From Paludibacteraceae bacterium (lineage in GTDB: Bacteria > Bacteroidota > Bacteroidia > Bacteroidales > Paludibacteraceae): a stretch of DNA of 41,731 nt. Below are positions 5,778-27,488 of this stretch, piece by piece. A model generated the notes under the pieces. The model was not told the origin of the DNA, searched no databases, and saw only the letters and a list, made by a program, of their open reading frames with translations. Each line of letters opens with the position of its first letter. The first letter of the stretch is position 1. The stretch spans positions 1-41,731 of the forward strand of contig JAFXYK010000011.1 of the NCBI GenBank assembly GCA_017541805.1. Direction: 5' to 3'. The translations under genes were made by a program, and so were the position numbers.

Positions 5778-8700
5778 TTAGAACGGATATCCGATTCCGA
5801 AATTGATACGGATAGCGTCCAGCGCGGACGGGATATTGAAATACGTAGTGATAGGCTGCGACTTGTCCGGCTTACCCTCTTTGTCGTAGCGGTAGGTCTG
5901 GTACGGCGCATGGATAGCTACGCCGATATCGAGTCGGATCACCAGACCGTCCAGATCGAGACGGAAACCGGTACCTGTACCCAAGGCGATCTGGTTGAGT
6001 AACTCCGGGTTGTCGAGGATACCGTCGTATAACTCGCTGTGCAGCTGCAACCGCTCCACATAATCCGGGAATCCCGCTTCTTTGAACAGCTTGTCCGCGC
6101 TGTACCAGTTCCATACGTTGCCGGCATCCAGGAACGCCGCGCCGTATAACTTCCATACGATCGGGAAGCGCAACTCGAAATTACCTTCTAACTTCACATC
6201 GCCGGCATGGAAGAAATGCTGGTTGTATTTATCCGAATAGAAATTACCCGGACCGTACGCATACGGCGATGCGGCACGCATGCTGTTCGGACCGCCGGCA
6301 TAGAACGCTTCGGATAAGGGAGCTACTTGCGAGTTACCTAACGGTATGTTTGCGCCGGCAAACAGACGCGTGGCGATGCAGACCTTATCGGTGATATTGA
6401 ATTTGTTACGCAACTCTGCGCTCACCTTCACGAACTGGTTGAACGTGATGGACCCTAAGGGTTTATCCTTGTCGTTCCATTTATAGCCGAAGGCGCAGTA
6501 GATGGCGTTGATCAGGTTGCCGGACTCCTTCACGCCCAGATCCAGCATCGTGTTCACCGCGCGCTTCGAGCGATAGTCGTTATAGATGAAGTTATACCCG
6601 ATGGACGGCACGAACTCATTGCTGGCAAGCAGCTTGATCAACTGCGGATACTCTGCCGCCTTGTCCATCAGACTGTCCGACTCCGCTTTCATCCTTACTA
6701 CCGACAGCGAGAACGGAGTGAACGCATGCGTGATATACCGCGAACCCTCGATGAAATAGGTGAACGACCCCGACATCTTATGGATGCCGTAGCCGCCGGC
6801 GATGTTCTCGTATTGGTAGCCCAGCGTATAGCGCGTGTCGCCGTCGGGGTTGTTGTCGCCGGTCCAGTGCAGGTACGGGAAGACGAGCGAGGTATGGATA
6901 CCGAACTTATACGTGTCGGTCTTCTTCGGGTCTCCCGGATGACGGTTGCGCAGCGCCCAGTAATAGGCGCCGTTGCCCTTGATAGTGAACGTCTCGCCTT
7001 TGCCTAACAGGTTCTTCATCGTCGACTTAAGCGTCACATCCGGACCGATACTGTTGTTCGACCGATACGCCACACCGGCATCCGCCGTCAACCCGTAGGT
7101 GCGGTAGATGGTGTCCAGAGCAGTGATCTTCGGTTGACGCCATTCTTTCGCGGCACGTACGCTCAGACCCGCTTTGTATAACTCGCCTTCGAACACATTG
7201 TTATAATCGCGCTGCGTGTAGAGACGGAGCGCTACGTCGCCGTTCTTGGTCAGCTTGTACTCGGCGGACAGGCTGTTCAGCAATCCGCTGCTCTGGTTCA
7301 CCTCCGGGTTGTCTGTGAAGGTCGAACCCACCGTGATGCGCAGCCGGTCTTTGAAGAACGACTTGCTGATCGCTACATTCAGGTCATTCGTCCGACCCTT
7401 GGCGTGCTCGGTCTGCGCACTGCTGATATCGATATCGACTACCTTGCCTAATTTCGAATTGGCCATCGCCGCGTTGATACGGCTGTTGACGATGGAGGAG
7501 AAAGCGTACCCGCTGCGTTGTGCCGCTACGTTGCTCTCGCCTACGTACATACCCGTTGCCAACAGCGTCGCCGCCAGACCTTCACGCGTCTCTTCGTCCA
7601 TTTTCGCCAACTCCTGCGTCACCTCCTCGTCATCCGGGGCTTCCAGGAAGAAACTGATCGTGTTCAGACCGATCGAATCCACCATGCCGTGCATCCGCAC
7701 ACCGGTTCGGAAATCCACGCGACGGGTCTCTTCTCCCTGCGACTCCACGTCGGATTTCACTTGCTGCGAAGCCGACACATCCAGCATCGTCTGACCTACC
7801 GGACCGTTGAAAGCGATATGACTGCCGGAGTCCACATGGAAAGGCATGATCGGGTACCATTTGGGCGAATAGCGGATGAAACCGTTATCTACGTTCACCT
7901 GACCGCCCAGACTCAGCGGATCGTCCTCCGCCGTCGCATAGCGCACCTCCACCGTGCCGTACGGCTTCACTTGCGCCAGGTTCTTTTTATCGATGGGGTA
8001 GGTGAGGTCGGTCGTCGGTAGGATGGTGATCGCTACGTCAGCCACGATGCTGTCCAGAGGACCGCTCACCGTACCTGCTATATCCGTCGCCAGATCGCCG
8101 TGAACGGGTAACAAGCCGTCTTTCTCCAGTTTCACCGGAGCAAAACTGTCCGCCGCCAGTGCGACATCCAACCGCATCGCATCCAGATCCAGACCGCCGG
8201 TCAGCGACATATACGTGCTGTCCGCACCATAGACCGGCAGACCGTTCAGGTTCACTTTGTTATGCTGCATCACGATCGGGGTCCCGCCCAGACCGATCTG
8301 TATGTCCTCCGGCTTGTACCGCGCCGACACTTTCATCGGCATCACCTCCGCGGAGATATCTATTTTGTTCGGCAGACCGTCTATCGTCGCCTGCGCACGG
8401 ACAGATCCCTTCATGTCTATATCCTCCATTTGGAGCATACCGTCCACCAGCGCCAGCGGGATGTCGTCCGACTGCACGTCCGCGCGGAGACCGTTCGGAT
8501 GTTCGTCCGAGCGGGCAATAGCCATCGTCACCGACCGGTCGCCGAAATCCATATCGCCTAACGACAGATCATCCAACTTCAGTCGTCCGGAACCGTTGAA
8601 CTCGTTCTCGTTCCGCTCGACGGCGAACACCAGCGCCGCGTTCGTACGCAGGTCACTCATCGTCGCCACACCGTCGGTAATTTCGCTGCCTGCGTCCAGC

Positions 8701-10196
8701 GACACACGTGTGCTCTTGTCGCGCATCGCTACACGCAGCGCCGCATTCGTCTCTATATCCGGTACGGACGCATCTACACTCAAACCCGTCTCCTCCGCGT
8801 CGGAACGCATATGCAGATCCACGCTCCGGATGTCTATGCCCATCTCGTCCAAGAGATGCTGTATCGGACTGCCGTGCGCCAAGGCAATATCGGCCTTCAT
8901 GCCCGGTATCCGTTCGCGCAGCGTATCGATCTTCGTCAGGTCGGACAGATCCGTGATGGGACCTATCACCGCTGTGTCACCGATGATGTCTATCAGCGGC
9001 AGAATCGAGTCGATCACCGTCAGACCCTGTCCGTTCACGCGCACCGCCATCGCCAGGTTGTTCGCCTTCACATCCACGGTGGCGGCCTCGTTGGTCGTCA
9101 GGTGCACATCCGTCCCGGACAGATCATAGTCTGCATAGACGAAGTCTTTCAGGTGCACATGGACGTCGCTCTCTTCTTGCTCGATGTTATAATAGCCTTT
9201 TAACTGCGCCGTGTTGCCTTGGTAGTCAGCATCGCCGGCTACATCTACACGCATCGTCTCCAGGTTCATGTCACTCACATCCAGGTTCGCTGCGGCGCCT
9301 ATGTCACGCGAACGCGTGTGCAGACCGCCGCCGGTGATCAACTGCGTGTTCAGATCCACCTTCGCTGAACCATACACCGTGTCCAGCGGTAACTCGAACT
9401 CGTTCACCGACAGCCGCAGGTCGCCTACATCCAACCGACGGGCATCGTAGATATTGCCGCTCACGTCCGCTAACACGTTCGTCTTCAGCGAAGCGACGGA
9501 TATATCCAGCCCCACCGGTGTCAACCGGAACCGCACGTTCTTCATCTCGCCGTCCGGCACGTCGAAAGCCAACAGCGTCGGCTCTTCCGGCTCCTCTTCC
9601 GGCGTGTCCACAGCCGTCGTGTCTATCGCCGTCGAGTCCACCGGCGCCTCCCGCAGATCGACTCCTACGTACGCGTCGTGTAATCGCAAGCCGTGCAGCG
9701 GGTACTCACCTCTCTTGATGTTCACGCCCGGACTCGTCAGCGCCAACTGACCGACGATAGCGTCAATACCTACTGTCTCAATCAGACTGTCGGAATGGAA
9801 CGTCGTCGTGTCCAGGTGCAGCCGGTCCACTACGATCGGAACGGCCAACAGCTCATCCGTACCTTGAGTCGTCAGTGCTGTGGCATGTAATCGTAAACAA
9901 TGGGTGTATATCAGCGTGTCCTGCCCGCGGTGACCGATGAAGAGCTCATCGATGTTTACCTCCACCGGCAGGTCTTCCCATCCCCGCCATGCGCGGTAGA
10001 ACACCAGCGGCGAGTGATGGAAGGGCGAGAGGTATATATCGCCCACTTCGATGTCATATCCCGTCTTCTCCCGCGCGATGGCCAGTCCTTTCTCGAACGC
10101 CATCTTACGCAGCGGAGGAATATAGATCACGCTCACTACTATCACTAGTAGCAGCATCAAAAGGCCCAGCAGCACGCCTATCGTCCATACCGGCAC
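5778..10196 (-). CDS. TamB-Omp85 fusion: inner-membrane-anchored TamB-like protein with C-terminal outer-membrane barrel
   Basis: One uninterrupted 1472-codon frame combines two proteins that are normally separate. Residues about 5-27 form a transmembrane anchor. Residues about 30-1010 look like TamB: long repetitive beta-rich sequence, the start typical of AsmA/TamB proteins (EKGLAIAREKTGYDIEVGDI), and the TamB C-terminal (DUF490) pattern at about 940-1020 (VAISKSFFKDRLRITVG, then SAEYKLTKNGDVALRLY). Residues about 1025-1472 look like an Omp85/TamA beta-barrel: GGPNSMRA and YGPG near 1300-1315 match the loop-6 region, RFPIVWKLYGAAFLDAGNVW is at about 1342-1362, and the last residue is phenylalanine. 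No POTRA domain or lipoprotein signal is visible. TamA and TamB together help insert outer-membrane proteins or move lipids. The only usual start codon is GTG at 10194-10196; an in-frame upstream stretch encoding KDKKKLWWK would suit the cytoplasmic side, but has no ATG. The fused architecture is seen directly; the function is inferred. Confidence 0.88.
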   Translation of the reverse strand: MPVWTIGVLLGLLMLLLVIVVSVIYIPPLRKMAFEKGLAIAREKTGYDIEVGDIYLSPFHHSPLVFYRAWRGWEDLPVEVNIDELFIGHRGQDTLIYTHCLRLHATALTTQGTDELLAVPIVVDRLHLDTTTFHSDSLIETVGIDAIVGQLALTSPGVNIKRGEYPLHGLRLHDAYVGVDLREAPVDSTAIDTTAVDTPEEEPEEPTLLAFDVPDGEMKNVRFRLTPVGLDISVASLKTNVLADVSGNIYDARRLDVGDLRLSVNEFELPLDTVYGSAKVDLNTQLITGGGLHTRSRDIGAAANLDVSDMNLETMRVDVAGDADYQGNTAQLKGYYNIEQEESDVHVHLKDFVYADYDLSGTDVHLTTNEAATVDVKANNLAMAVRVNGQGLTVIDSILPLIDIIGDTAVIGPITDLSDLTKIDTLRERIPGMKADIALAHGSPIQHLLDEMGIDIRSVDLHMRSDAEETGLSVDASVPDIETNAALRVAMRDKSTRVSLDAGSEITDGVATMSDLRTNAALVFAVERNENEFNGSGRLKLDDLSLGDMDFGDRSVTMAIARSDEHPNGLRADVQSDDIPLALVDGMLQMEDIDMKGSVRAQATIDGLPNKIDISAEVMPMKVSARYKPEDIQIGLGGTPIVMQHNKVNLNGLPVYGADSTYMSLTGGLDLDAMRLDVALAADSFAPVKLEKDGLLPVHGDLATDIAGTVSGPLDSIVADVAITILPTTDLTYPIDKKNLAQVKPYGTVEVRYATAEDDPLSLGGQVNVDNGFIRYSPKWYPIMPFHVDSGSHIAFNGPVGQTMLDVSASQQVKSDVESQGEETRRVDFRTGVRMHGMVDSIGLNTISFFLEAPDDEEVTQELAKMDEETREGLAATLLATGMYVGESNVAAQRSGYAFSSIVNSRINAAMANSKLGKVVDIDISSAQTEHAKGRTNDLNVAISKSFFKDRLRITVGSTFTDNPEVNQSSGLLNSLSAEYKLTKNGDVALRLYTQRDYNNVFEGELYKAGLSVRAAKEWRQPKITALDTIYRTYGLTADAGVAYRSNNSIGPDVTLKSTMKNLLGKGETFTIKGNGAYYWALRNRHPGDPKKTDTYKFGIHTSLVFPYLHWTGDNNPDGDTRYTLGYQYENIAGGYGIHKMSGSFTYFIEGSRYITHAFTPFSLSVVRMKAESDSLMDKAAEYPQLIKLLASNEFVPSIGYNFIYNDYRSKRAVNTMLDLGVKESGNLINAIYCAFGYKWNDKDKPLGSITFNQFVKVSAELRNKFNITDKVCIATRLFAGANIPLGNSQVAPLSEAFYAGGPNSMRAASPYAYGPGNFYSDKYNQHFFHAGDVKLEGNFELRFPIVWKLYGAAFLDAGNVWNWYSADKLFKEAGFPDYVERLQLHSELYDGILDNPELLNQIALGTGTGFRLDLDGLVIRLDIGVAIHAPYQTYRYDKEGKPDKSQPITTYFNIPSALDAIRINFGIGYPF

Positions 10197-10233
10197 CTTC
10201 CACCAAAGTTTCTTCTTATCCTTAATTTTTTTA

Positions 10234-10770
10234 TTATTTACTTAGCGGAGTAAGTGTTTGTAGCGGTGTCTCTCGCAGCACATACGGCGCCTCTCTCCCC
10301 TCGGTCTTTACGCGCAACTGCCCATAATCCTTCGAGAAGTAATACTGCCCTTGCCCCAGCACCGTCGTCGTCCCGATGAACGCATGCTCACCCTCTTCGG
10401 CATCCGGCGCACTGAAATGTGCCGGAGACAGCGTATGCTGCGCCTCGCCATAACTGTTCACCTCCCGCACAAAATGGCGGTCAAATAGGAACCACACCAT
10501 CACCGTGTCGTTCATATAACTGCGCACCACCGGACCCATGATTGAATCCTGCTGCCATCGCTCTTTGAACGCCGCCGCCTCTAATTTCATATCCGTGATG
10601 GCCGGGCTCACCTTGCCCTCCACCTGTGCGGCTTTTTCCTTCACTTTGCCTTCCACCGTCTTCTCTACGTTCATCACTTTCTCACCGATACCGGTAAAGA
10701 ATGTCTTCACGTCTGCCGACGCACTCGCGACCACCATCGTCGCTACTATTACAAATACTATCTTTTTCAT
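10234..10770 (-). CDS. Secreted protein of unknown function upstream of the TamB-Omp85 fusion
   Basis: This 178-residue protein starts at ATG 10768-10770, giving a signal peptide (MKKIVFVIVATMVVASASA). Longer readings would run into the promoter. The mature part begins with a lysine- and glutamate-rich, probably helical segment (MNVEKTVEGKVKEKAAQVEGK). It continues as a mixed domain with aromatic pairs (VMVWFLFDRHFVREVNSY) and ends in LRETPLQTLTPLSK. No family was recognised. It is the first gene of a two-gene minus-strand unit: its stop is 37 nt before the GTG of the TamB-Omp85 gene, and no terminator lies between. A periplasmic partner or chaperone of the fusion protein is a reasonable guess, based only on position. 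Confidence 0.8.
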   Translation of the reverse strand: MKKIVFVIVATMVVASASADVKTFFTGIGEKVMNVEKTVEGKVKEKAAQVEGKVSPAITDMKLEAAAFKERWQQDSIMGPVVRSYMNDTVMVWFLFDRHFVREVNSYGEAQHTLSPAHFSAPDAEEGEHAFIGTTTVLGQGQYYFSKDYGQLRVKTEGREAPYVLRETPLQTLTPLSK

Positions 10771-10788
10771 ATTCCCAATTTTGCGCTG

Positions 10789-10820
10789 CAAAATTAATGC
10801 TTTTTTTTGACATGTGCAAG
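10789..10820 (-). promoter_or_regulatory. Bacteroidota-type promoter for the minus-strand unit
   Basis: On the minus strand the -7 box TAATTTTG (10789-10796) lies 20 nt downstream of a -33 box CTTG (10817-10820). The stretch from TTGCACATGTC through an eight-A tract to GCA is identical to the promoter before tRNA-Pro. Transcription should start near 10783, about 13 nt before the ATG. Confidence 0.8.
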
Positions 10821-10838
10821 AATTATCCTTCTTTTTTA

Positions 10839-10870
10839 TTTGCGTATATAAAAATTTTTTTGTACCTTTG
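10839..10870 (+). promoter_or_regulatory. Bacteroidota-type promoter for the AraC-family gene
   Basis: TTTG at 10839-10842 and TACCTTTG at 10863-10870 are separated by 20 nt. The expected transcription start (about 10874-10877) is only a few bases before the ATG at 10880, so the message would be leaderless or nearly so. The element lies back to back with the promoter of the minus-strand unit; the two -33 boxes are 18 nt apart. Confidence 0.75.
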
Positions 10871-10879
10871 CCGCCGATT

Positions 10880-12046
10880 ATGGGTAATGCAGTGCGTAAC
10901 ATATGGTATAATTACAAGTCGGAAGTACTTTTCGGCGTGGTGATGGTAGCGCTGACGGTGCTGAGTACATACCTGTCGCGGTTTATACCGGATAATATAT
11001 ATGATACTATTCTCACGCCGGCGTTCAATGTAGGTACGTTCACGGCAGCTTTTGCCTGCGCGTGGATTACCTTCCGTCATGTGGAGCACTTGCGTATTCG
11101 GCGTGCGTGGGGATATGCGTTGTTGATATGGGGCTTGGGCGATCTGTCTTATTTTGTCTGTTACGCGATCGCCCCGATGCAGGTGATGAACATGGGTGCC
11201 GAGCATATCACGGCGTATGAACTGCTGATCGGTAATCTGTTAGGATGGGTGATGGTGCTGTATCCAACCGAGACCCTTCGTCCGGGATGGCTGACGTGGA
11301 AGGTCGTGGCGTGGCAGTTGTTGCCGATGATTGTGCTGGTAGCATTGGACTATGTGATTCCTTTCAGTCTACGGCTGTTGATAGCGCTCTATCCGTATGC
11401 GCTGCTGATAATGGTGCTTACGCATATACGCGAGTACCAGAAATGGTGCGAGGATAATTTCTCAACCTTGGACAATATGGATGTGCAGTGGATCATCCGC
11501 TACTGTATCATGTTAGCCATCATCGGCATCAATTATGTCAATATATGCATTGCGCACGATCATACGCGCGGATTCACGCAACAGTGGTTCGTCATCGTCA
11601 TGCTCGTCTATAGCACAGAGCAGATTCTTTACCGAAAAGACCCGTGGCAACGTCTGCGCACATTACCGCAAGAAGAGGAATCAACCGAAATCGAACAGCC
11701 ATATGCCGCCTATCGTGCTACGCTGGAATCTTGGCTTGAAAAGGAGAGACCGTATCTCAATCCCGATTTCCAGTTGACCGACTTACGTCAAGTACTGCCG
11801 CTCAACCGTACCTATCTGAGCCGGTTCATCAATAGCGAATATGGTTGTAGTTTCTATCAATGGGTGAACAGACTGCGTATCGAAGAGGCAAAGCGTCTGA
11901 AAATGGAGCATCCCGAGTGGACGGCACAGGATATCGCCGAACATGGTTGCGGCTTCTCGTCCCGCCAAGCTTTCTATCGCACTTTCCTCCGCGAGACAGG
12001 TCAAACTCCCAGCGAGTGGTGGGCTGCCCAAAACAACACCAAATAA
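10880..12046 (+). CDS. Membrane-anchored AraC-family transcriptional regulator
   Basis: This 388-residue protein has about six or seven hydrophobic segments in residues 15-235 (for example VLFGVVMVALTVLSTYL and LLPMIVLVALDYVIPF). A short linker leads to a C-terminal AraC/XylS-type DNA-binding domain (about 285-388). Two helix-turn-helix units are visible: the first around FQLTDLRQVLPLNRTYLSRF, the second ending in WTAQDIAEHGCGFSS and RQAFYRTFLRETGQTPSEWW. Membrane-bound AraC regulators are common in Bacteroidota and probably sense signals at the membrane. The start at 10880 was chosen because it follows the promoter directly; the next in-frame ATG (10943) would cut into the first membrane segment. 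Its target is unknown, but the surface-protein operon downstream, with phased direct repeats before its promoter, is a candidate. Confidence 0.88.
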   Translation: MGNAVRNIWYNYKSEVLFGVVMVALTVLSTYLSRFIPDNIYDTILTPAFNVGTFTAAFACAWITFRHVEHLRIRRAWGYALLIWGLGDLSYFVCYAIAPMQVMNMGAEHITAYELLIGNLLGWVMVLYPTETLRPGWLTWKVVAWQLLPMIVLVALDYVIPFSLRLLIALYPYALLIMVLTHIREYQKWCEDNFSTLDNMDVQWIIRYCIMLAIIGINYVNICIAHDHTRGFTQQWFVIVMLVYSTEQILYRKDPWQRLRTLPQEEESTEIEQPYAAYRATLESWLEKERPYLNPDFQLTDLRQVLPLNRTYLSRFINSEYGCSFYQWVNRLRIEEAKRLKMEHPEWTAQDIAEHGCGFSSRQAFYRTFLRETGQTPSEWWAAQNNTK

Positions 12047-12882: not shown

Positions 12883-13626
12883 ATGAGAAAATTCTTTACT
12901 CTCTTCTTTGCCCTCGCGGCAAGTGTAGGGATAAGCTGGGCGAGTGTCACATGGATAAGTGACCAGTACGGAAATGAAAAAGGTTATAATGCAGGAACTC
13001 CTTTTACTAAGGATGGGGTAACTGTAACAATGAGCGATAATGCCTTTTTCAATGTTAGTTATTGGGGTGATGCCTCACTGCAATGCGTGAAGGGTACCTT
13101 TGATCCTACTGCCGGAAATTATGTGTTCTCCAATTCTCTCGGCGAGAACTTCGTCAAGATTATAATTGCTGCCGGCTATCCATCAGAATGGGAGTGGTTC
13201 CCCAAAGGAGATGGATGGGTATTGAGTGGAGATGAGTATAATGGTTATATACTCACTTGGACCGGCAATGCCAGTACTGTAACTCTGATGGACAATGAAC
13301 TCCACAGCGTGCATCAAAGTATCGAAGGCGACATCGTATTCTATTTTGAGAGTGACGATGCATTCACCCCGGTGGTTTATAAGGACAGCCTTGATAATAC
13401 GATAGCTCAAGAGACCGTTGCTTTCAACCGTCCGGAGGCACCGGAGGTGCCGGGCTTCACGTTCGTTACCTGGGAGGCAAAAGAAGGCCCGCTGAGCGAA
13501 GGTATCAAGCTCCAGGCAATCTACACGGAGAACGAACCTTCGGGTGCGCCCAAGAAACAGGTAGGCAAGTACACACTTACCCGCAAGGGCGATAAGAACG
13601 AGTATATTCTTCAAACTGCTAAATGA
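12883..13626 (+). CDS. Secreted protein with beta-sandwich domain and Listeria-Bacteroides-type repeat
   Basis: This 247-residue protein starts with a signal peptide (MRKFFTLFFALAASVGISWA). Residues about 21-165 form a beta-rich domain (VTWISDQYGNE, then GDGWVLS and LTWTGNASTVTLMDNE). This domain recurs inside the giant neighbour around residues 1573-1706 (GSGWVISNENKTATWTGNAD). Residues about 185-225 resemble one InlB B-type / Listeria-Bacteroides repeat (PGFTFVTWEAKEGP, then GIKLQAIYTEN), also present in the neighbour. The C-terminus (VGKYTLTRKGDKNEYILQTAK) loosely resembles the short tail of other secreted proteins here. The stop overlaps the next start (ATGA). It may be a companion surface protein or an offshoot of the giant gene. 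Confidence 0.82.
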   Translation: MRKFFTLFFALAASVGISWASVTWISDQYGNEKGYNAGTPFTKDGVTVTMSDNAFFNVSYWGDASLQCVKGTFDPTAGNYVFSNSLGENFVKIIIAAGYPSEWEWFPKGDGWVLSGDEYNGYILTWTGNASTVTLMDNELHSVHQSIEGDIVFYFESDDAFTPVVYKDSLDNTIAQETVAFNRPEAPEVPGFTFVTWEAKEGPLSEGIKLQAIYTENEPSGAPKKQVGKYTLTRKGDKNEYILQTAK

Positions 13627-16600
13627 ATTATACTATGATAAAGAGATTTTATATCCTACTTCTTGCTATAGTAGCAAGCGTAGGGATGAGCTATGCAGCC
13701 GGTATCCCCTGCACTGCAGCAGATCTTGGCAAGGTGCTCTGCACCGATGGTAGTATCTACGCTACAGTTAGCGAAGCGACTGCTGCAAGTAAAACGGCTG
13801 CTGCCGTCATTGCCTATGTCGATACCGAGAACGGCAAGGCTCTCGCACTCGCACTGGCAGATGATGGTGGTGAGATGGAATGGGCAACGGCAAAAACAAC
13901 CGCAGCTGCTCATACGCCTGCCGTCAGCGGAAGCACATGGACACTGGCCTCCAAGGACGATTGGGACAATATGATCACCGCGGCAGGTAGCTACACCGCT
14001 CTGCGCGATGGCTTCAGTGCTGTTGGTGGTACGAATATGCTAGTGGCCGAATACTGGACATCTACAGAAGGAACTTATTCTGGTACAGCAATAGGTTACA
14101 GATTCCAAAATGGCATTTGGACCGACCCTGATGTCGATGATCCTCTTCATGTTCGTGCCTGTATCGCATTCGACATCTTTGCCACTCCGGCGGAGTTACC
14201 GGGTGCATTTACTATCAATGCAAACGGAGACAAGATCGTCTTCTCCAAAGGTAACTTACAGGCAACAACCACCGACCTCGGTGCTAACTGGACGTGGGAT
14301 TTTGCTCCTAACCAATGGAGTCTTATCGGCAATGCTGTTGCTAACAATGCCATCAAAGGAAACAAAAAAGTTTCTGCAAATGGTACGGTAGATCTCTTTG
14401 GTTGGAGTACTGCGGCTACCTACTATGGTATCAATGAGAGCTGGAATAACGACGATTATGCCGGAGACTTCGTTGACTGGGGCGCACTTATGGGCACAGA
14501 ATGGCGTACGCTGAGTAGAGCCGAGTTTTATTACATTGTTTATAGCCGCGCGCAAGCGGCCTATAAACGCGGTCAGGCTACGGTGAACGGCGTGCCGGGT
14601 TATGTACTCTTGCCGGACGCATGGACTCTCCCGAGCGGTTTGAGTTTTACAAACAGTATCGAAAATTATACCACAAACCAATACAACGGAGCCGATTGGA
14701 CCGCTATGGAGAGCGCCGGTGCAGTCTTCTTACCTGCTGCCGGAGTTCGTGAGGGAACGGATATATATCAAGTAAATCTCTACGGCTGGTATTGGGCTTC
14801 TACTCCGAATGAGACAGATGGAGGAAAAGCGTACTACTTATGGTTCGATAAGTCAAGTCAAGGCGTTACCGAATACAATCGTTGGAAATCAAAATCTGTA
14901 CGTTTGGTAACAGAAGCTCCGATTCCGCCTTATGAGGCTGCAATAAAGTTGATTAACGAGATTCCGAATCCGGTGGTTCTCACCGCAGAGTGCAAAGCGA
15001 AGATCGATGCTGCCCGTGCGGCATACGACGCGCTGAGCGACGAAGACAAAGCAAAAGTAACCAATATCACTACGCTGACGACTGCTGAGGCAGCATTTGA
15101 CAACGTTATGAATATCTGGCTCAGCGGTGACTGCGATGCCATCCTGTGGAAAGATACGACCCTGACTATTCGTAAACATGCAGGCGAAGGCAACGGAGCG
15201 ATGGCAGATTATACGGACTACTATGGTGATAATACTGCTCCTTGGTTCAACTCTCACTGGTACAACCCGCAACCGGGCGACATCGTAATCAAGTCCGTTA
15301 CGTTAGAAGAAGGTGTTACCCATATCGGTGAAAACGCCTTCGGATGGATGAGCGAACTGAAGACCATTACTATTCCGTCAAGCGTAACAAGCATTGGTGA
15401 AGACGCGTTCTATTGGAGCAAGGCGGTCGATGATATTTATCTCTCTGCGGACCCGTCGAACCTGACATGGGTACTTCCGTATAGTGCAGATAATCAGTTC
15501 AAACCGGAAAAGGCTACTCGTTGCCACGTACCGGCTGACCTCTTAACTGCTTACCAGGAGAAATTCGGTACCCTCAATATGACTTTCGTGGGTGACCTTG
15601 ATCCGATTACTCCGCTTACTCCGGAGCAGCAGCAAGCGTTGGATGCAGCCAAAGGTTTGATTAACGCTATTCCTTCGCCGGTTGTTTATACTCCGGCATG
15701 CAAGGATGCCATCGACGCTGCCCGTGCGGCATACGATGCGTTGACACCCGATATGTTAAAGCAGTTGGTAAGCAACTACGCAACGCTGACCGCAGCCGAG
15801 GCTACCTATGCAAACCTGAAGGATGTAGTGGTAGTAGAGGCTAAGATCAACAACATCCCGAGTCCGATTACGCTGAAACTCGCTACGCGCGATTCTATAG
15901 AAAGCGCGCGCGCTGCGTACGACGCTCTGACTGATGACCAGAAACTGCTGGTAAGCAACTATCAGACCCTGCTCGATGCCGAGGCTGAGCTTGCAACGCT
16001 GAACCCGGGCGGCGGAGCTCCTGCCGGTGCGTTGAACGGTAAGTTCACTATTAATGCCGGCGGTGACCAAATCGCATTCGCAAAAGGTAACCTGCAGGCT
16101 ACGACTACCGACCTCGGTGCAAACTGGACTTGGAGCTTCGCTGCTAACCAATGGAATTACCTTGGTATTGCCGTAGCGAATAACAAGATCACCGGCAATA
16201 AAACCGTTTCTGAGAATGGTACGGTGGATCTCTTCGGTTGGAGTACTAACGCTACCTACTATGGTATCAATAATAGCTATAAGGCCGTCGATTATATCGG
16301 AGATTTTGTCGATTGGGGACCCAACATGGGTGCCGGTTGGCGTACACTCACAAAAGATGAATGGGCCTATCTGCTTCAGCACTCTTCCAATGGTAAGGCT
16401 ACCGTAAACGACAAGAACGGTTATATCTTCCTTCCGGATAATTGGAGCGGCCCGGCCTTTACCCCTAATCCGGACAACTTTACAACGAATGTCTATTCCG
16501 GCGACGACTGGACCGCAATGGAGAACGCCGGTGCGGTGTTCCTGCCTTCTGGCCCTGCTCGCAATCGCATATATGCATTGATAGCAAATGATGCTAAATA

Positions 16601-19600
16601 TTGCAGTTCCACCTCGTTGAATAATGATACTTCGTATGTATTCACAATTTACTACAATCAGTCTCAAAGCGCTTGTACCGGCACCAATCGCGCGTATGGT
16701 TGCATGGTTCGTTTGGTATCTGAAGGTGGAGGTGCTACTCCGCTGGATTCCGCACAGGCTGTGAAAGACCTGATTGAGGCTATTCCGATGCCTGTAACCT
16801 TGGAAGACGCTTGTGTGAACGCTGTTCAGGCAGCACGCGACGCTTACAACGCGCTGAGCGACGCTGCCAAGGGCGCCCTTGATGCAGCTACGGTGCAGAA
16901 ACTGAATCAGGCTATCACTGATTACACGGCATTAATCCAAGCCGGCGCAGACGAGGTAATCGCTAAGATCAACAACATCCCGCAGCCGGTTACGCTCAAA
17001 CTCGCTACGCGCGATTCTATTAATAACGCACGCGCTGCGTACGACGCTCTGACTGATGACCAGAAACTGCTGGTAAGCAACTATGATGTGCTGACCGCTG
17101 CTGAGGCTACGATGGCTACTCTCAACCCTGGCGGTGATGCGCCTGACGGAGCAGTGAGTGGTAAGTTCTCGATTGACGAATCAAGTGTCGTTTACTTCTC
17201 CAAGGGTAACCTGCAAGCTACGACAGCTGACCTCGGTGCTAACTGGACATGGGGCTTTGCCGCTCACCAGTATGACACAATCGGCGATGTTGCTGCCAAT
17301 AACGCTATCAACGGCAACGGTACGGTATCCGCTAACGGTACAGTCGATCTGTTCGGCTGGAGTACTTCCGCCACAAAATATGGTATCCATAACGGCACTA
17401 ATAGTAATATTAGCGACTATGCAGGCGATTTCGTAGATTGGGGTGCCACGATGGGCGACGGCTGGTTCACTTTGTCAAAAGAGCAATGGTATTGCCTGTT
17501 CAATACCCGTACCGGCGATAAGGCAGCGACTGTAAATAGTGTAGCCGATTGCAGATATACAAAAGCCACCATTAATACGGATGGGACAGCAGTAAAAGGT
17601 TTTATCCTTTTCCCTGATGGCGGTACTTTTGCTGCAAGTGAATTTACGGCTGTAGGGTCTCCTAATGCAGAAGATGTAGATTATACTACTACTTGTACTA
17701 CTGCACAATGGAATGCTTTGCAGGCAAAAGGCTGCGTCTTCCTGCCGGCAGCGGGCCGCCGCTATGGTGTGAGTGTGAGCAATGAGGGCTCGAACGGCTA
17801 CTATTGGTCGTCCTCGCCTAAACCCTCCACTGATGACGCGTACTTCGTGTTCTTCTATTCGGGCGGTTTGTTTCCTGCGTCCAACGACTTCCGCTGCATG
17901 GGTCTATCCGTCCGCCTCGTTATCGAGGCTCCGGCTTCTCCTCTCGCCGCTGCGCAGGCTGTGAAAGACCTGATTGAGGCTATTCCTGCAGAGATTACGA
18001 CGGATGACGCTTGCGTAAAGGCGATAGAGGATGCACGCGCAGCTTATGACGAACTGAGCGAGGCTGCTCAGGGTGCCCTTGATGCAGCTACCGTACAGAA
18101 ACTGACCGACGCAGAGGCTGCTTACGCGATATTAATCAAAGCCGAGGCAGATGCAGTAGTTGCCAAGATCAACAATATCCCGACGCCGATAGAGCTCAAA
18201 CTCGCTACGCGCGATTCCATAGAAAGCGCGCGCGCTGCGTACGAGGCTCTGAACGTTTACCAGAAACCAATGGTAACCAACTATCAGAAACTGCTCGACG
18301 CTGAGGCTGCTCTTGCTGAACTGAACAAAGGCGGCTCAACACCGGTGGACATTGTTTGGGACGGTAATACCGGTATCGCGAATGTCAGTCCAACTACCAC
18401 CAGTCCTGCATACGAAGGTATGACCGTCACAGTTGGTAAAGGTAGTTCGTTCTCGACGTATCAAAGTCGATTGTACTTCACCTTTAACAGTCAGCCCAAT
18501 GGTGGTTTTATCTTTGCGAATGAGAATGGCACCAACATTACGAAAGTTGTCATCGAATCCACCACTGCGCTTACTTCTACTATGACAGAGGTAGATAGAA
18601 TGGGTAGCGGATGGGTAATCAGCAACGAAAATAAAACCGCTACGTGGACAGGTAATGCAGATTCCGTTAAGATTTGGGAGGGTCAGCACTTTGCCAACTA
18701 CTGGGTTGTAGATATGATTACGTTCACCGTTAGCGCTTCTTCTACTCCGCTGGATTCGGCTCAGGCTGTCAAAGACCTGATTGATGCTATTCCGCAACCG
18801 GTTGAGTATCCGACGAGCGGTCCGGCTATCGCAGCCGCTCTCGTGGCATACCAACAATTGAGCGACGCAGCCAAGGGTGCGCTCGATGTCGCTGATGTAC
18901 AGAAAATGACCGATGCTGCGGCACAATACACAGCACTGGATGCTATCGCAGCGATCGATGCAATCCCGGCTGAGATTGTTTATGACCCGGCTGTCAAAGC
19001 TGCTATCGAGACCGCTCGCGAGAAATACGACGCACTGATCGATGCTTCGAAAGCACTGGTAGATGACGAAGTAGTAGCAAAACTCACTAACGCCGAGAAG
19101 GCTTGGGCAGATCTCGTAGCGCTGATTGAGCACAACGTAAGCTATATGGGTAAGGACGGCGAACTGAAGAATGAGAAAGTAGCCCTGCTCCATATCCCGA
19201 ATCCGGCTCCGGACTTCAACGGTTACGAGTTCGTTCGCTGGGATGTCAAAGCAGGCAACTTCCTTGAGGAAGGTCTCCGCATCAAGGCTATCTATACGCC
19301 GATCATCACCACCAATCCGGTGGCATACGACACCCTCGTTTATAACGGTACGGCGCAGACCCTGGTTACCGCCGGTGTGGCGAAGGAAGGTCATATCGAG
19401 TATCGTATCAATGACGGTGAATGGAGCACTGAACTGCCGAAGGCTACCTTCGCGGCCGCGTACGTAGTATATTATAAGCTCGTGCGCGAGGGACACGCGG
19501 ACTACATCGCGGATCCGATCAATGTAACGATCGCCAAGGCTCCGGTTACCTATACCGCGCCGACGGCTGTTGAAAACCTCGTTTATAACGCATCTAACCA

Positions 19601-22340
19601 GACCCTCATCGCAGCCGGTCAGACCAACGACGGTACCTTCGAGTACAGTCTCGATCCGACATTGTTGGATAGCTGGAAGGCTGAACTGCCGCAGGCAAAA
19701 GATGCCGGTACGTATAGTGTTTACTACCGCGTAAAGGGTGACCTTAACCACCTTGATTCGACGGCTGTTGATCCGATAGCTGTGACGATCGCTAAGGCTG
19801 CGTTGACCGCTACTGCGGATGATAAGAATGTTATCTACGGCGACGCTGTACCTGCATACACCGTTACCTATGCCGGCTGGCAAGGCGACGACGATGCTTC
19901 AGTGCTGACCGGTGACATCGCATTCGCTTGCGAGTACGCGCCGACCAGCAATATAGGCTCATATGTCATCACTCCGAGTGGTGTAAGTGCTGCTAACTAT
20001 AACATCACCTTCGTTAACGGTAAGGTAACCGTAGCTCAGGCAACCCTGATGATCACCGCCGAGGATAAGAATGTGACCTACGGTGATGCTGTTCCTGAGT
20101 ACACCGCTACGTATAGCGGCTGGAAGAACACCGACGGTGCTTCGGTAGTAAGCGGTCTGATCTACACCTGCGAATACGCTCCGACGAGCAACGTAGGCGA
20201 TTACACCATCACTCCGAGCGGTGCTACAGCTACCAACTACAACATCAGCTACACGAACGGTAAGGTAACCGTTGCTCAGGCAGCCCTGATGATCACCGCC
20301 GAGGATAAGAATGTGACCTACGGTGATGCTGTTCCTGAGTACACCGCTACGTATAGCGGCTGGAAGAACGCAGACGATGCTTCGGTAGTAAGCGGTTTGG
20401 TTTACACCTGCGAATATGCTCCGACGAGCAACGTAGACGAGTACTCGATCGTTCCGAGCGGTGCTACAGCTACCAACTACAACATCAGCTACACGAACGG
20501 TAAGGTAACCGTTGCTCAGGCAGCCCTGATGATCACAGCCGATGACAAGAACGTCATCTACGGTGACGCTGTTCCTGAGTACACCGCTACCTATAGCGGC
20601 TGGAAGAACAGCGACGATGCATCGGTTGTAAGCAACCTCGCTTATACCTGCGAGTACGCTCCGACAAGTAACGTAGGCGATTACACCATCACTCCGAGCG
20701 GCGCAACGGCTCAGAACTACGCTATCAGCTACACCAACGGTAAGGTGACCGTAGCGCAGGCTACCCTGACTGTTACAGCGGAGGACAAGTCCGTTACCTA
20801 CGGCGATGCTGCTCCGGCGTTCACTGCTACCTACAGCGGCTGGAAGAATACCGATGGCGAGTCGGTAGTAAGCGGTCTGACGCTCACGAGCGAATACCTC
20901 GTAACGAGCAATGTCGGCACTTACGACATCGTTCCGGCTAACGCAACGGCGCTCAACTACACCTTCGTCTATGTCAACGGTACACTCACCGTTAACCAGG
21001 CTCCGCTGATGATCACCGCAGACGACAAGTCCGTTGAATACGGTGAGGTGGCTCCGGCATTCACCGCTTCCTATAGCGGTTGGAAGAATACCGATGACGA
21101 GTCGGTAGTAAGCGGTCTGGCTTATACCACTCCGTACGCTCCGGGTAGTTATATCGGTACCTATGCGATCAACCCGAATAGCGCTACCGCACTCAACTAT
21201 GCAATCACCTTCGTCGATGGTACACTGACGGTCAACAAAGCACACGTCTATGTATCCGACGCAGAGGCTCAGATTGCTAAGTTCGCGGACGGACACGCTA
21301 ACGCAGTGGTACTTGAGCAAGGTGTACTCAACGGTATCAAACTGAATGATCAGATAGCCCACGTCACTACCGCTGCCTTCAGCAGTGCAGACGTAGCAGA
21401 GAATCTGACGATCACCCTGTTCTACGAACTGACCGGCGATGCCGCTCTGCTCAATAACTACAACCTCGATCCGACCTCCGATATCTTCACTACCGAAGGT
21501 GTTATCATCGAGCCGTTCATCCCGGACGACGAGACCGAACCGGAAGATCCGGAAGCTGCGGTTGAAGAAGGTATTGAGATCTATGCATACGGTTACTGCG
21601 ACGGCAGCGGATATAGTCTCCGTTACCACCTCGAGAGCGGTAACCCCGATCAGTATATGATTGACTTCGCAGACAGCCGATTCACCGACGTCGATTGGAC
21701 CAACCTCACTATCGTTGGTAAGGACGGAACGATCGATATCGAGATTCCGGTGGATATGCCGACCGGTGACTACACGATGACCGTTTACTTCCGCGACAGC
21801 CGCTTCACGTGGCTCGAAAGCAAGGCCATCACCGTCACCTTCCATGTCAACCTGCCGGAGACCTATGTTCGTCCGCTGTTCGACAACGTGATCGCATTGG
21901 TTGATACCTGCAACTGTCTGACCGACATCCAGTGGTACTGGCGTGCTAATAGCACCGACACATGGGTGGCTATCCCGGGTGCTAACGGTTACTACTACCA
22001 CTCCGATACGAAATTGGAAGGTGAGTTCTTCGTCTATGCTAAGATGAACGGTGAGCCGACGTACACCTGTGCACAGGCTGACCTGGAGACCCTGTACGGC
22101 GACGACACGAAGCAAGCGAAGGTACAGGCTTACCCGAACCCGGTTATCACTACTACCACCGTGACCATCGAGAACTCGGAGAACAACGAGCACAACGTAC
22201 GTATCGTGAACCTCATGGGTGCTGAAGCAGAACGCTTCACCTTCGAAGGAAACGAGACCGTCGTGGATATGACCGATTACCCGCAAGGTAACTACATGAT
22301 ATCCGTCGATGGCATCGTAGTCAAGGTTATGAAACAATAA
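13623..22340 (+). CDS. Giant modular surface protein with type IX secretion C-terminal domain
   Basis: This 2905-residue protein is probably displayed on the cell surface. Order of parts: signal peptide (1-22; the start could also be ATG 13635); a DUF1566/Lcl-like domain (to about 186); three copies of a module marked KGNLQATT, DLFGWST and GDFVDWG (about 196-436, 800-1035, 1177-1438); nine three-helix spacer repeats of 55-65 residues (IxxIPxPV, then ARAAYDALxDxxK) between them; a BspA-like leucine-rich segment (about 498-660, GENAFGWMSELKTITIPSSV); a beta domain shared with the previous gene (1573-1706); an InlB-like repeat (1837-1893); two related beta repeats (1895-2060); six MBG-type repeats of 80 residues (2060-2540); further Ig-like domains; and a type A sorting domain (about 2830-2905: YPNP, then YPQGNYMISVDGIVVKVMKQ). 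Such tails direct export and surface anchoring by the type IX system, whose machinery is not in this window. Adhesion or glycan binding is likely but unproven. Confidence 0.93.
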   Translation: MNYTMIKRFYILLLAIVASVGMSYAAGIPCTAADLGKVLCTDGSIYATVSEATAASKTAAAVIAYVDTENGKALALALADDGGEMEWATAKTTAAAHTPAVSGSTWTLASKDDWDNMITAAGSYTALRDGFSAVGGTNMLVAEYWTSTEGTYSGTAIGYRFQNGIWTDPDVDDPLHVRACIAFDIFATPAELPGAFTINANGDKIVFSKGNLQATTTDLGANWTWDFAPNQWSLIGNAVANNAIKGNKKVSANGTVDLFGWSTAATYYGINESWNNDDYAGDFVDWGALMGTEWRTLSRAEFYYIVYSRAQAAYKRGQATVNGVPGYVLLPDAWTLPSGLSFTNSIENYTTNQYNGADWTAMESAGAVFLPAAGVREGTDIYQVNLYGWYWASTPNETDGGKAYYLWFDKSSQGVTEYNRWKSKSVRLVTEAPIPPYEAAIKLINEIPNPVVLTAECKAKIDAARAAYDALSDEDKAKVTNITTLTTAEAAFDNVMNIWLSGDCDAILWKDTTLTIRKHAGEGNGAMADYTDYYGDNTAPWFNSHWYNPQPGDIVIKSVTLEEGVTHIGENAFGWMSELKTITIPSSVTSIGEDAFYWSKAVDDIYLSADPSNLTWVLPYSADNQFKPEKATRCHVPADLLTAYQEKFGTLNMTFVGDLDPITPLTPEQQQALDAAKGLINAIPSPVVYTPACKDAIDAARAAYDALTPDMLKQLVSNYATLTAAEATYANLKDVVVVEAKINNIPSPITLKLATRDSIESARAAYDALTDDQKLLVSNYQTLLDAEAELATLNPGGGAPAGALNGKFTINAGGDQIAFAKGNLQATTTDLGANWTWSFAANQWNYLGIAVANNKITGNKTVSENGTVDLFGWSTNATYYGINNSYKAVDYIGDFVDWGPNMGAGWRTLTKDEWAYLLQHSSNGKATVNDKNGYIFLPDNWSGPAFTPNPDNFTTNVYSGDDWTAMENAGAVFLPSGPARNRIYALIANDAKYCSSTSLNNDTSYVFTIYYNQSQSACTGTNRAYGCMVRLVSEGGGATPLDSAQAVKDLIEAIPMPVTLEDACVNAVQAARDAYNALSDAAKGALDAATVQKLNQAITDYTALIQAGADEVIAKINNIPQPVTLKLATRDSINNARAAYDALTDDQKLLVSNYDVLTAAEATMATLNPGGDAPDGAVSGKFSIDESSVVYFSKGNLQATTADLGANWTWGFAAHQYDTIGDVAANNAINGNGTVSANGTVDLFGWSTSATKYGIHNGTNSNISDYAGDFVDWGATMGDGWFTLSKEQWYCLFNTRTGDKAATVNSVADCRYTKATINTDGTAVKGFILFPDGGTFAASEFTAVGSPNAEDVDYTTTCTTAQWNALQAKGCVFLPAAGRRYGVSVSNEGSNGYYWSSSPKPSTDDAYFVFFYSGGLFPASNDFRCMGLSVRLVIEAPASPLAAAQAVKDLIEAIPAEITTDDACVKAIEDARAAYDELSEAAQGALDAATVQKLTDAEAAYAILIKAEADAVVAKINNIPTPIELKLATRDSIESARAAYEALNVYQKPMVTNYQKLLDAEAALAELNKGGSTPVDIVWDGNTGIANVSPTTTSPAYEGMTVTVGKGSSFSTYQSRLYFTFNSQPNGGFIFANENGTNITKVVIESTTALTSTMTEVDRMGSGWVISNENKTATWTGNADSVKIWEGQHFANYWVVDMITFTVSASSTPLDSAQAVKDLIDAIPQPVEYPTSGPAIAAALVAYQQLSDAAKGALDVADVQKMTDAAAQYTALDAIAAIDAIPAEIVYDPAVKAAIETAREKYDALIDASKALVDDEVVAKLTNAEKAWADLVALIEHNVSYMGKDGELKNEKVALLHIPNPAPDFNGYEFVRWDVKAGNFLEEGLRIKAIYTPIITTNPVAYDTLVYNGTAQTLVTAGVAKEGHIEYRINDGEWSTELPKATFAAAYVVYYKLVREGHADYIADPINVTIAKAPVTYTAPTAVENLVYNASNQTLIAAGQTNDGTFEYSLDPTLLDSWKAELPQAKDAGTYSVYYRVKGDLNHLDSTAVDPIAVTIAKAALTATADDKNVIYGDAVPAYTVTYAGWQGDDDASVLTGDIAFACEYAPTSNIGSYVITPSGVSAANYNITFVNGKVTVAQATLMITAEDKNVTYGDAVPEYTATYSGWKNTDGASVVSGLIYTCEYAPTSNVGDYTITPSGATATNYNISYTNGKVTVAQAALMITAEDKNVTYGDAVPEYTATYSGWKNADDASVVSGLVYTCEYAPTSNVDEYSIVPSGATATNYNISYTNGKVTVAQAALMITADDKNVIYGDAVPEYTATYSGWKNSDDASVVSNLAYTCEYAPTSNVGDYTITPSGATAQNYAISYTNGKVTVAQATLTVTAEDKSVTYGDAAPAFTATYSGWKNTDGESVVSGLTLTSEYLVTSNVGTYDIVPANATALNYTFVYVNGTLTVNQAPLMITADDKSVEYGEVAPAFTASYSGWKNTDDESVVSGLAYTTPYAPGSYIGTYAINPNSATALNYAITFVDGTLTVNKAHVYVSDAEAQIAKFADGHANAVVLEQGVLNGIKLNDQIAHVTTAAFSSADVAENLTITLFYELTGDAALLNNYNLDPTSDIFTTEGVIIEPFIPDDETEPEDPEAAVEEGIEIYAYGYCDGSGYSLRYHLESGNPDQYMIDFADSRFTDVDWTNLTIVGKDGTIDIEIPVDMPTGDYTMTVYFRDSRFTWLESKAITVTFHVNLPETYVRPLFDNVIALVDTCNCLTDIQWYWRANSTDTWVAIPGANGYYYHSDTKLEGEFFVYAKMNGEPTYTCAQADLETLYGDDTKQAKVQAYPNPVITTTTVTIENSENNEHNVRIVNLMGAEAERFTFEGNETVVDMTDYPQGNYMISVDGIVVKVMKQ
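19797..21242 (+). repeat. Six tandem MBG-domain repeats inside the giant surface gene (240-nt period)
   Basis: The equivalent codon of each repeat lies at 19815, 20058, 20298, 20538, 20778 and 21018: a first step of 243 nt, then exactly 240 nt each. Copies two and three are identical over 86 nt (20044-20129 against 20284-20369), and long stretches near their 3' ends also match. This indicates recent duplication or gene conversion. Each unit encodes a domain with the pattern YGDAVPEYTATYSGWKN, then EYAPTSNVG and NYNISYTNGKVTVAQA. Confidence 0.92.
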
Positions 22341-24970: not shown

Positions 24971-26494
24971 ATGAGATATAATATAAAGGTGAAAGGTGAA
25001 AGGTTAAAGGTGAAAGGTTACCGGATGTGGGTAATCGTATTACTATGCACTCTTAGCCTCCCGCTGTCGGCGGCGGACACGTTGGTGACCACTCTGTCGG
25101 CGTGTCGTGATATGGCGCTTCATACCGGTTCTTCGGCGAAAGCGAAGCAGGAAGCAATCCTTGCGGCGGAGTATAACCGTAAGGCAGCTCTGGCGGCGAT
25201 GTTTCCGCGTGTCAGCGCCAATGCGGGGTATATGTGGAACTCGAAGAAAGCCCATTTCGTAGGCAACGAGGCGGCGTTCTCTTTCGGCACCGCGACGGTA
25301 GCCGAGGACGGAACAGCGTCTTTCGCATGGAGCGACAACAGCGTGGCGGGTTCGTTGCAGCAATGGACCGCCGGTACAGTCTTGGAGCAACCCGTGAAGA
25401 GTCTCTCCGATCAGATTGGCCAACATATCGCCGATGCGTATAAATACGTCTATGACGCGGCGACGGTGGACCTGACGCACGTGGTAGTCGCTCAAGCGAC
25501 GGTGATGCAACCGATCTACGTAGGCGGTCGACTGATCCAGACTTATAAGATCGCGCAGGCGACGGAGAACATGGCAAAGATCGAGTCCGAAGCCAAACGG
25601 GAGGAGATCATCTACAAAGTAGATGAGGCGTACTGGCGCGTGGTGGCTGTGACGCAGAAGAAACAGTTGGCGGAGCAGTATTACTCACTTCTGTGCCAGT
25701 TGGAGCAGGACGTCAAAGAGGCCGTCAACGAAGGCGTGGCTACGCAGGCTGACCTGCTGAATGTCACCACCAAACGTGGCGATGCGGAAGTGAAGAAACT
25801 GCGTGCCGAGAACGGCCTGACGCTGTCGAACATGGCGCTGGCGCAGGTATGCGGCCTGCCGCTGTCTACGTCGTTCGTGTTGGATGCTTCGGGCCTGAGT
25901 GAGACCAGTCTGCCTGTGTCGGACATGGATACAGAGACGGCTGTCGCCAACCGCTCGGAGTTACAACTGATGGAGCAGGCGCAGGAGATAGCTAACCGCA
26001 CAGCGAAGATAGCAGGTGCGGGACTGCAACCGAATATCATCGCGCAGGCCAGTTATATGTACACCAATCCGAATTTCGAGAACGGCAACAGCAGTAACTG
26101 GGACGGCAAGGGTTTCTTCTCCGCCGGTGTGGTAGTGAACGTACCAATCGTCCATGCGGATGATATCCTGCGTTACAAAGCCGCCAAGCATGCGGCGAAA
26201 GTGGTGGAACTGAAGACGGAAGAGACACGCGAGCTGCTGACGCTGCAGACGACACAAGCCAATCAGCAACTGGCGGAGGCGCAGCAGAAGATTGCTGTGG
26301 CGCTGTTGACGCAGAAGAATGCGGAAGAGGTATTAAGAATGGCGCGTGAGTCGTTCGACGCGGGGATGGTCACTGCATCCGAACTGATGCAGGCCCAGAC
26401 ACTATGGCTTTCCGCCGCTACTGATCTCATCGATGCACAAGCCGAGGCGAAGACGGTTGAAACACAATTACGCAAATATTTAGGTAAGTTATAA
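24971..26494 (+). CDS. TolC-family outer-membrane efflux protein
   Basis: This 507-residue protein would form the outer-membrane channel of the export system encoded with the next three genes. Its middle and C-terminal parts show the TolC/OEP pattern: long alanine- and glutamine-rich helices (VDEAYWRVVAVTQKKQLAEQ, EAVNEGVATQADLLNVTTKR), barrel-like sequence (IIAQASYMYTNPNFENG), and the closing LMQAQTLWLSAATDLIDAQA. The signal peptide follows an unusual N-terminal extension of about 18 residues (IKVKGERLKVKG), encoded by a heptad repeat array. An alternative start at ATG 25025 would give MWVIVLLCTLSLPLSA directly and leave the array as leader. The following gene starts 1 nt after the stop. Confidence 0.92.
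   Translation: MRYNIKVKGERLKVKGYRMWVIVLLCTLSLPLSAADTLVTTLSACRDMALHTGSSAKAKQEAILAAEYNRKAALAAMFPRVSANAGYMWNSKKAHFVGNEAAFSFGTATVAEDGTASFAWSDNSVAGSLQQWTAGTVLEQPVKSLSDQIGQHIADAYKYVYDAATVDLTHVVVAQATVMQPIYVGGRLIQTYKIAQATENMAKIESEAKREEIIYKVDEAYWRVVAVTQKKQLAEQYYSLLCQLEQDVKEAVNEGVATQADLLNVTTKRGDAEVKKLRAENGLTLSNMALAQVCGLPLSTSFVLDASGLSETSLPVSDMDTETAVANRSELQLMEQAQEIANRTAKIAGAGLQPNIIAQASYMYTNPNFENGNSSNWDGKGFFSAGVVVNVPIVHADDILRYKAAKHAAKVVELKTEETRELLTLQTTQANQQLAEAQQKIAVALLTQKNAEEVLRMARESFDAGMVTASELMQAQTLWLSAATDLIDAQAEAKTVETQLRKYLGKL
24982..25023 (+). repeat. Heptamer tandem repeat array at the start of the TolC-family gene
   Basis: Six 7-nt units: TATAAAG, GTGAAAG, GTGAAAG, GTTAAAG, GTGAAAG, GTTACCG. If translation starts at 24971 the array is coding and, because three heptads equal seven codons, gives the repeated peptide KVKGERL. 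If it starts at 25025 the array ends 1 nt before the ATG and is a leader, as at the other junctions. Confidence 0.85.
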
Positions 26495-26495
26495 T

Positions 26496-27485: not shown

Positions 27486-27488
27486 CCG

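Follow-up and report, generated by a model that had tools for sequence, protein, structure and literature searches.

A putative single-chain TamB-Omp85 protein derived from a tamB2-tamL2 gene pair in a Paludibacteraceae bacterium

The translocation and assembly module (TAM) is normally a complex of two subunits, one anchored in the outer and one in the inner membrane. How TamB delivers cargo to the Omp85 barrel, and whether the pair formed by TamB and barrel strand beta-1 is a working state or a trap, is an open question. A natural case bearing on it is found in the 41,731 nucleotides studied here (the window: contig JAFXYK010000011.1, positions 1 to 41,731, of assembly GCA_017541805.1, Paludibacteraceae bacterium), where both partners are encoded by one frame instead. 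A reading of this DNA from its letters alone (the sequence-only reading) had proposed a single-chain TamB-Omp85 protein lacking POTRA domains and a lipoprotein signal; this was borne out, as neither a POTRA nor a lipoprotein stretch was detectable and the protein is conserved and no artefact. The gene probably encodes a natural single-chain TAM that bridges both membranes, the fusion being supported by homology and the rest by what is known of the two families.

The interval 5778-10196 is one open frame of 1472 codons on the minus strand, with a GTG start at 10196 and the stop at 5778. The coordinates given by the sequence-only reading are right; the plus strand contains many stops in the frame read. 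Upstream of the GTG the frame stays open for 15 more codons (10197-10241, minus strand) that include no ATG, GTG or TTG; this stretch is lysine-rich (VNNKKIKDKKKLWWK) and resembles the N-terminal ends of homologous proteins. Translation may in fact begin at a non-canonical codon (ATT within 10197-10241), or the upstream region may have been altered.

The strongest hydrophobic segment of the chain was found at residues 6-24 (KD19 3.23; best elsewhere 1.6). Residues 640-1472 are well conserved, with a mean column identity of 79% among 46 members (the window and 45 of the 79 loci described below); R1307, the Arg of loop 6, and GYPF at the C-terminus are among the conserved positions. When this fragment was scanned alone, PF04357 (TamB/DUF490) matched residues 747-997 with 58 bits (cut-off 22.4), and the alignment with split TamB2 proteins by hhalign covered residues 640-1015 (100%, E 7.7e-47); the N-terminal TamB part matches TamB2 by BLAST in three of eight split loci. 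The Omp85 profile PF01103, by which the sequence-only reading had suggested checking the barrel, matched residues 1253-1472 (55 bits, cut-off 24) and has a match in 44 of the 46 members, and the barrel aligned with split TamL2 to the last residue (hhalign, E 1e-71). The TamL profile NF052279 (NCBIfam) matched residues 1032-1472 with 316 bits, below its cut-off of 400; the match spans profile positions 334-747 of 747, and the N-terminal half of the profile is unmatched. Compared with TamL2, the barrel contains inserts after NVW and after PYQT, and MRAA in place of IRAF. By the usual Omp85 topology, these differences presumably lie in outer loops 7, 8 and 6, and the motif GGPNSMRAA would be that of loop 6. 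By its parts the fusion is a TAM, yet it is neither a TamL (there is no lipobox or POTRA, and the NF052279 score is below cut-off) nor an ordinary TamB. The layout is given in Table 1.

Table 1. Positions of the fused frame and its parts in the window
Feature	Coordinates	Strand	Residues	Basis or remark
Fused TamB2-TamL2 reading frame	5781..10196	-	1472 amino acids	Counted from GTG at 10196, the first start codon of canonical type
N-terminal hydrophobic segment, likely inner-membrane signal anchor	10125..10181	-	6-24	Hydropathy; topology predicted
TamB-like periplasmic body	8280..10118	-	27-639	613 amino acids
TamB/DUF490 domain	7206..7958	-	747-997	PF04357 profile 150-369 of 381; fragment scan and hhalign to TamB2
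Last TamB2 strand (putative strand), GELYKAGLSVRAAKEW	7140..7187	-	1004-1019	Aligned with TamB2 GEIxxTGVGFVYRKKL
Junction linker, 14 residues, W1019 to Y1034	7098..7139	-	1020-1033	Length comparison
TamL2-type Omp85 barrel, strand beta-1 to C-terminal GYPF	5781..7097	-	1034-1472	Profile matches, alignment, hhalign
Presumed loop-6 motif GGPNSMRAA	6270..6296	-	1301-1309	Alignment; GGANSIRAF in split TamL2

Genome contigs were scanned with an alignment of ten fusions and two fusion-derived peptide patterns; 235 stretches matched, 164 of them encoding relatives, and the best 80, from 79 genomes, were kept. Since the patterns were derived from fusions, the scan is evidence for recurrence of the joint and gives no measure of its frequency. 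In 79 of these 80 other loci, a single stop-to-stop frame of 1489-1691 residues runs from before residue 80 to beyond residue 1450, with the junction (about 7098-7187 in the window) inside it, while in the exceptional locus L079 the frame covers residues 229-1472. The titles of the 80 loci name Bacteroidales, Bacteroidia or Paludibacteraceae, and the source, where named, is a ruminant or its stomach.

Among the 79 homologues, the DUF490-plus-linker part (384-414 residues) and the barrel (437-447) are of near-constant length, while the TamB body ranges between 619 and 822 residues. The window's body, with 613 residues the shortest of 80, putatively spans the periplasm, and its shortness speaks for another reading, in which the N-terminal segment is removed as a signal peptide, or the body does not reach far enough, so that the protein hangs from the outer membrane and forms no bridge. 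The shortest homologue has 619 residues. We consider this reading unlikely. The linker between W1019 and Y1034 has 14 residues here and in 69 of the 79 homologues. Its length differs in the other 10, and residues 1021-1030 are among the less conserved tens in that region (0.68 vs 0.89 at 991-1010), as might be expected if one polypeptide were cut in the linker after export to give a separate TamB and a POTRA-less TamL barrel. Such a cut is also improbable, given the identical length in the majority, and it is not obvious how a free barrel that lacks both POTRA and lipobox would hold TamB.

No POTRA family was among the matches at E 0.01 of the 46 members over residues 640-1472, nor among those of 38 members (the window and 37 of the 79 loci) over residues ~15-700, the two scanned parts overlapping. 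Both split TamL2 that were scanned, with 33 and 27 bits, and TamL1, with 46 bits, lie above the POTRA cut-off of 21.3. The fusion has no counterpart of the first 359-404 residues of TamL2 (counted stop to stop), and its TamL2 part begins with the first strand of the barrel. The lost stretch contains the regions matched by POTRA models in the two TamL2 that were scanned, and also the lipobox Cys, which is invariant in all eight split TamL2. TYGL at 1033-1036 may be a trace of the last pre-barrel stretch of TamL2. Residues 990-1033 were considered as a POTRA remnant on account of a weak hhalign extension, and this was rejected because the TamB2 alignment is clearer there (EGE...G).

The likely origin of the fusion is indicated by eight split loci of other families (L039-L046). 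Each has a TamB-like frame (1492-1628 residues) and, after it on the same strand, a TamL-like frame (773-822 residues); read from stop to stop, the two frames overlap in seven loci and abut in one. PF04357 scores 142 bits and NF052279 741 bits on one such pair. The sequence-only reading had held that the gene order does not suit a joining of tamA-tamB neighbours; this has to be given up, since tamB2 stands directly upstream of tamL2 in all eight loci and the order therefore does fit a fusion of neighbours. Read-through alone is insufficient, because the 359-404 N-terminal TamL2 residues are missing. The same reading had allowed that ordinary TamB proteins of the order might carry a barrel-like end, and none was seen: the eight split TamB2 end 14-61 residues past the BLAST-matched TamB part. 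The fusion keeps TamB up to its last conserved strand (residues ~1004-1019, by alignment to TamB2), and its barrel scores 187-229 bits by BLAST against TamL2 of L039-L046 and 113 bits against TamL1 of its own genome. Homology indicates that the fusion derives from an accessory tamB2 and tamL2, with the lipobox and POTRA domains of TamL2 lost.

A barrel tree of 43 rows was built, with fusions represented by 12 of the 79 full-frame loci, three of four further fusion loci (L038 omitted) and the window, with the TamL rows of L134, L136, L144 and L146 left out, and with TamL2 and TamL1 labels assigned from gene context and BLAST. All 16 fusions group together at 100/100, and the 13 TamL1 make up a second group. 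The 13 split TamL2 need three changes; four of them (L140, L142, L145 and L147) fall with the TamL1, and the branch of BamA is very long. Owing to the scattered split TamL2 and the long BamA branch, the tree does not settle which TamL2 lineage is sister to the fusion clade.

The window's genome also encodes a separate TamB (TamB1, C70), a separate TamL with POTRA domains (TamL1, C85), of the kind the sequence-only reading had proposed to look for, and a protein resembling BamA (C92; 212 bits with TIGR03303, cut-off 297, for the 651 residues scanned), so that the fusion is an extra system. The fusion itself recurs in related genomes. In the window's genus, both ends lie in one frame in 39 of 73 genomes (own included) and in pieces in four, and 30 show none (counted by hand from the result table; genome completeness 54 to 100%); none of these 30 genomes, and none of four others scanned with them, has more than one strong TamL match. 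Among 393 genomes drawn evenly from the order, five had fusions, spread over three families. In two other families, 5 of 100 and 23 of 99 genomes had a fusion at E 1e-60; a few of these are partial, and in one (G1277) the frame is broken. The genome draws overlap. Among 395 genomes drawn from the class, the only fusion at E 1e-42 was the window's own, and in a PF01103 search of 296 genomes of the phylum the frames among the matches listed had at most 1127 residues, fusions beyond those being possible.

Two different fusion genes were observed in one genome in two cases: L065 and L075 (both record set DBYS01, UBA1180), whose best segments are 61% and 54% identical to the window's fusion, and C4 and C27 of G1272. 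In G1277 (C64:22134-26899) the homologue frame is broken near query residue 864/865, and other genomes have intact copies.

The patchy spread (43 of 73 genus genomes with pieces included, and the minorities in the two other families), the loss of the POTRAs and the retention of ordinary TamB and TamL are what a structural tether between the membranes, or a TAM fossil, without transport or assembly activity would show. The conservation of residues 640-1472, R1307 and GYPF included, speaks against this, and we regard it as quite improbable. An assembly or frame artefact joining two genes, which the sequence-only reading had named for the junction, is practically dismissed even though all 80 loci are titled as uncultured or metagenome-assembled bacteria, because the frame is kept in 79 of 80 loci from 79 genomes and the 14-residue linker recurs.

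For the bridging single-chain TAM, the mechanism would be as follows. The N-terminal helix would anchor the fusion in the inner membrane, the TamB body would cross the periplasm as a hydrophobic groove, and the barrel at the C-terminus would be seated in the outer membrane. Cargo, most likely phospholipid or beta-strands of outer-membrane proteins, would move from the inner membrane into or beside the protein's own barrel, and the system would be a dispensable one next to ordinary TamB, TamL and BamA. In the cryo-electron microscopy structure of E. coli TamAB, TamA beta-1 pairs with the last strand of TamB, which also touches three POTRA domains, and crosslinks join T267 to E1258 and E269 to Q1256 (PMC12800296). 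The sum of the crosslinked positions is constant, from which we deduce an antiparallel pair with the TamB C-terminus beside the start of beta-1. A short turn, as in the fusion, would therefore be the simplest covalent form of such a hybrid barrel. It would tie the last TamB strand to beta-1 and keep the pair permanently close as a beta-hairpin; the reversible strand pair of E. coli would thus become permanent, and the covalent link would take over the docking role of the POTRAs. More tentatively, the C-terminal strands of TamB and those of TamL may form one enlarged single-chain barrel of ~20-22 strands, unable to close fully at the beta-1/beta-16 seam, so that the groove would lead straight into the outer membrane, the joint standing in for the POTRA domains; this is possible, but we would not rely on it.

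Several observations weigh against this picture. PF04357 was not reported when the whole 1472-residue chain was scanned, and at E 0.01 the profile matches only 11 of 46 fusion fragments. The hhalign alignment of the barrel extends weakly into the last POTRA of TamL2, and a measure of strand alternation failed to separate barrel from body (body 1.86, DUF490 2.32, TamB end 2.06, barrel 1.89). The tamB-adjacent TamL of L140, L142, L145 and L147 score 135-149 bits against the fusion barrel, with TamL1 of various genomes (102-148 bits) hardly below them. In E. coli, deletion of POTRA2 of TamA was lethal in the authors' assay (PMC12800296), so the loss of all POTRAs is not obviously tolerated. In Flavobacterium johnsoniae, tamB2 and tamL2 can be deleted and their function is not established (PMC12045153). 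The same report predicts a 22-strand TamL-TamB hybrid in which TamB adjoins the final strand of the TamL barrel and not beta-1, an arrangement that the joint of the fusion fits less directly.

Around the fusion, a frame of 222 residues lies directly upstream on the same strand (10234-10902, minus) with a weak lipoprotein-attachment match (E 0.11), and no relative of it turned up next to the other fusions examined. Of ten genes of the window, each was near fusions in at most 3 of the 79 loci (flanks of at most 6 kb, often ended by the contig). Elsewhere in the window, a frame of 2905 residues (13623-22340, plus), scanned over its first 1000 residues, matches a BspA-type leucine-rich repeat there; genes for an outer membrane efflux protein, an HlyD-like protein and an ABC-2 permease stand in a row at 24971-28667 (plus), perhaps as an export operon; and a protein of 590 residues with an Endonuclease I domain is encoded at 34702-36474 (plus).

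Inner- and outer-membrane partners have been joined in some uncultured gut Bacteroidales near the contact site known from E. coli, a natural test of the machine. With the contact fixed by a covalent joint and the POTRAs discarded, the fusion argues that the TamB-beta-1 pair is a functional state and that the POTRAs serve mainly for docking. It would offer a one-gene TAM of fixed 1:1 composition for structural work and lipid-transport tests, and it supplies independent (Rosetta-stone) evidence for joint action of TamB2 and TamL2.

In the comparison with known structures, the fusion profile (A2) matched no PDB entry up to E 1, and the profiles of split TamB2 and TamL2 reached E. coli TamB (E 1.5e-4), TamA and BamA. 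The TamA-TamB entries among the matches were 9xdc/9xdd and 23sp/23sq. The best stretch of the E. coli TamB match covers chain residues 826-952 and not the last strand, so residues 1004-1019 correspond to the last E. coli strand by domain position and not by direct alignment. No such single-chain protein appeared in the titles and abstract starts of the listed open-licence papers on TamB, TamA, TamL, TamL2/TamB2, DUF490, AsmA-like and Omp85 proteins, and it may be described elsewhere. Neither 'fusion' nor 'fused' occurs in PMC12045153, PMC4494059, PMC13382580, PMC12800296 or PMC11014939.

Among known systems, the Omp85 'noNterm' subfamily shares a barrel without POTRA domains and differs in having neither an N-terminal extension nor a TamB part (PMC4104836). 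In Borrelia burgdorferi, TamB strands are likewise modelled as completing an Omp85 barrel, but in two chains, with a BamA that has five POTRAs, in an AlphaFold model (PMC13382580). The TamB2-TamL2 operon of F. johnsoniae (Fjoh_1899-Fjoh_1900), present in 20 of 30 Bacteroidota species, contains the same two proteins in the order of the split loci, the start of tamL2 overlapping the stop of tamB2, and is likewise an accessory copy next to TamB and TamL; it differs in that the proteins are two and TamL2 is a predicted lipoprotein, and the report mentions no fusion (PMC12045153). E. coli TamA-TamB resembles the fusion in combining a TamB groove with an Omp85 barrel and in placing the last TamB strand on beta-1, the difference being that three POTRA domains also hold TamB there (PMC12800296).

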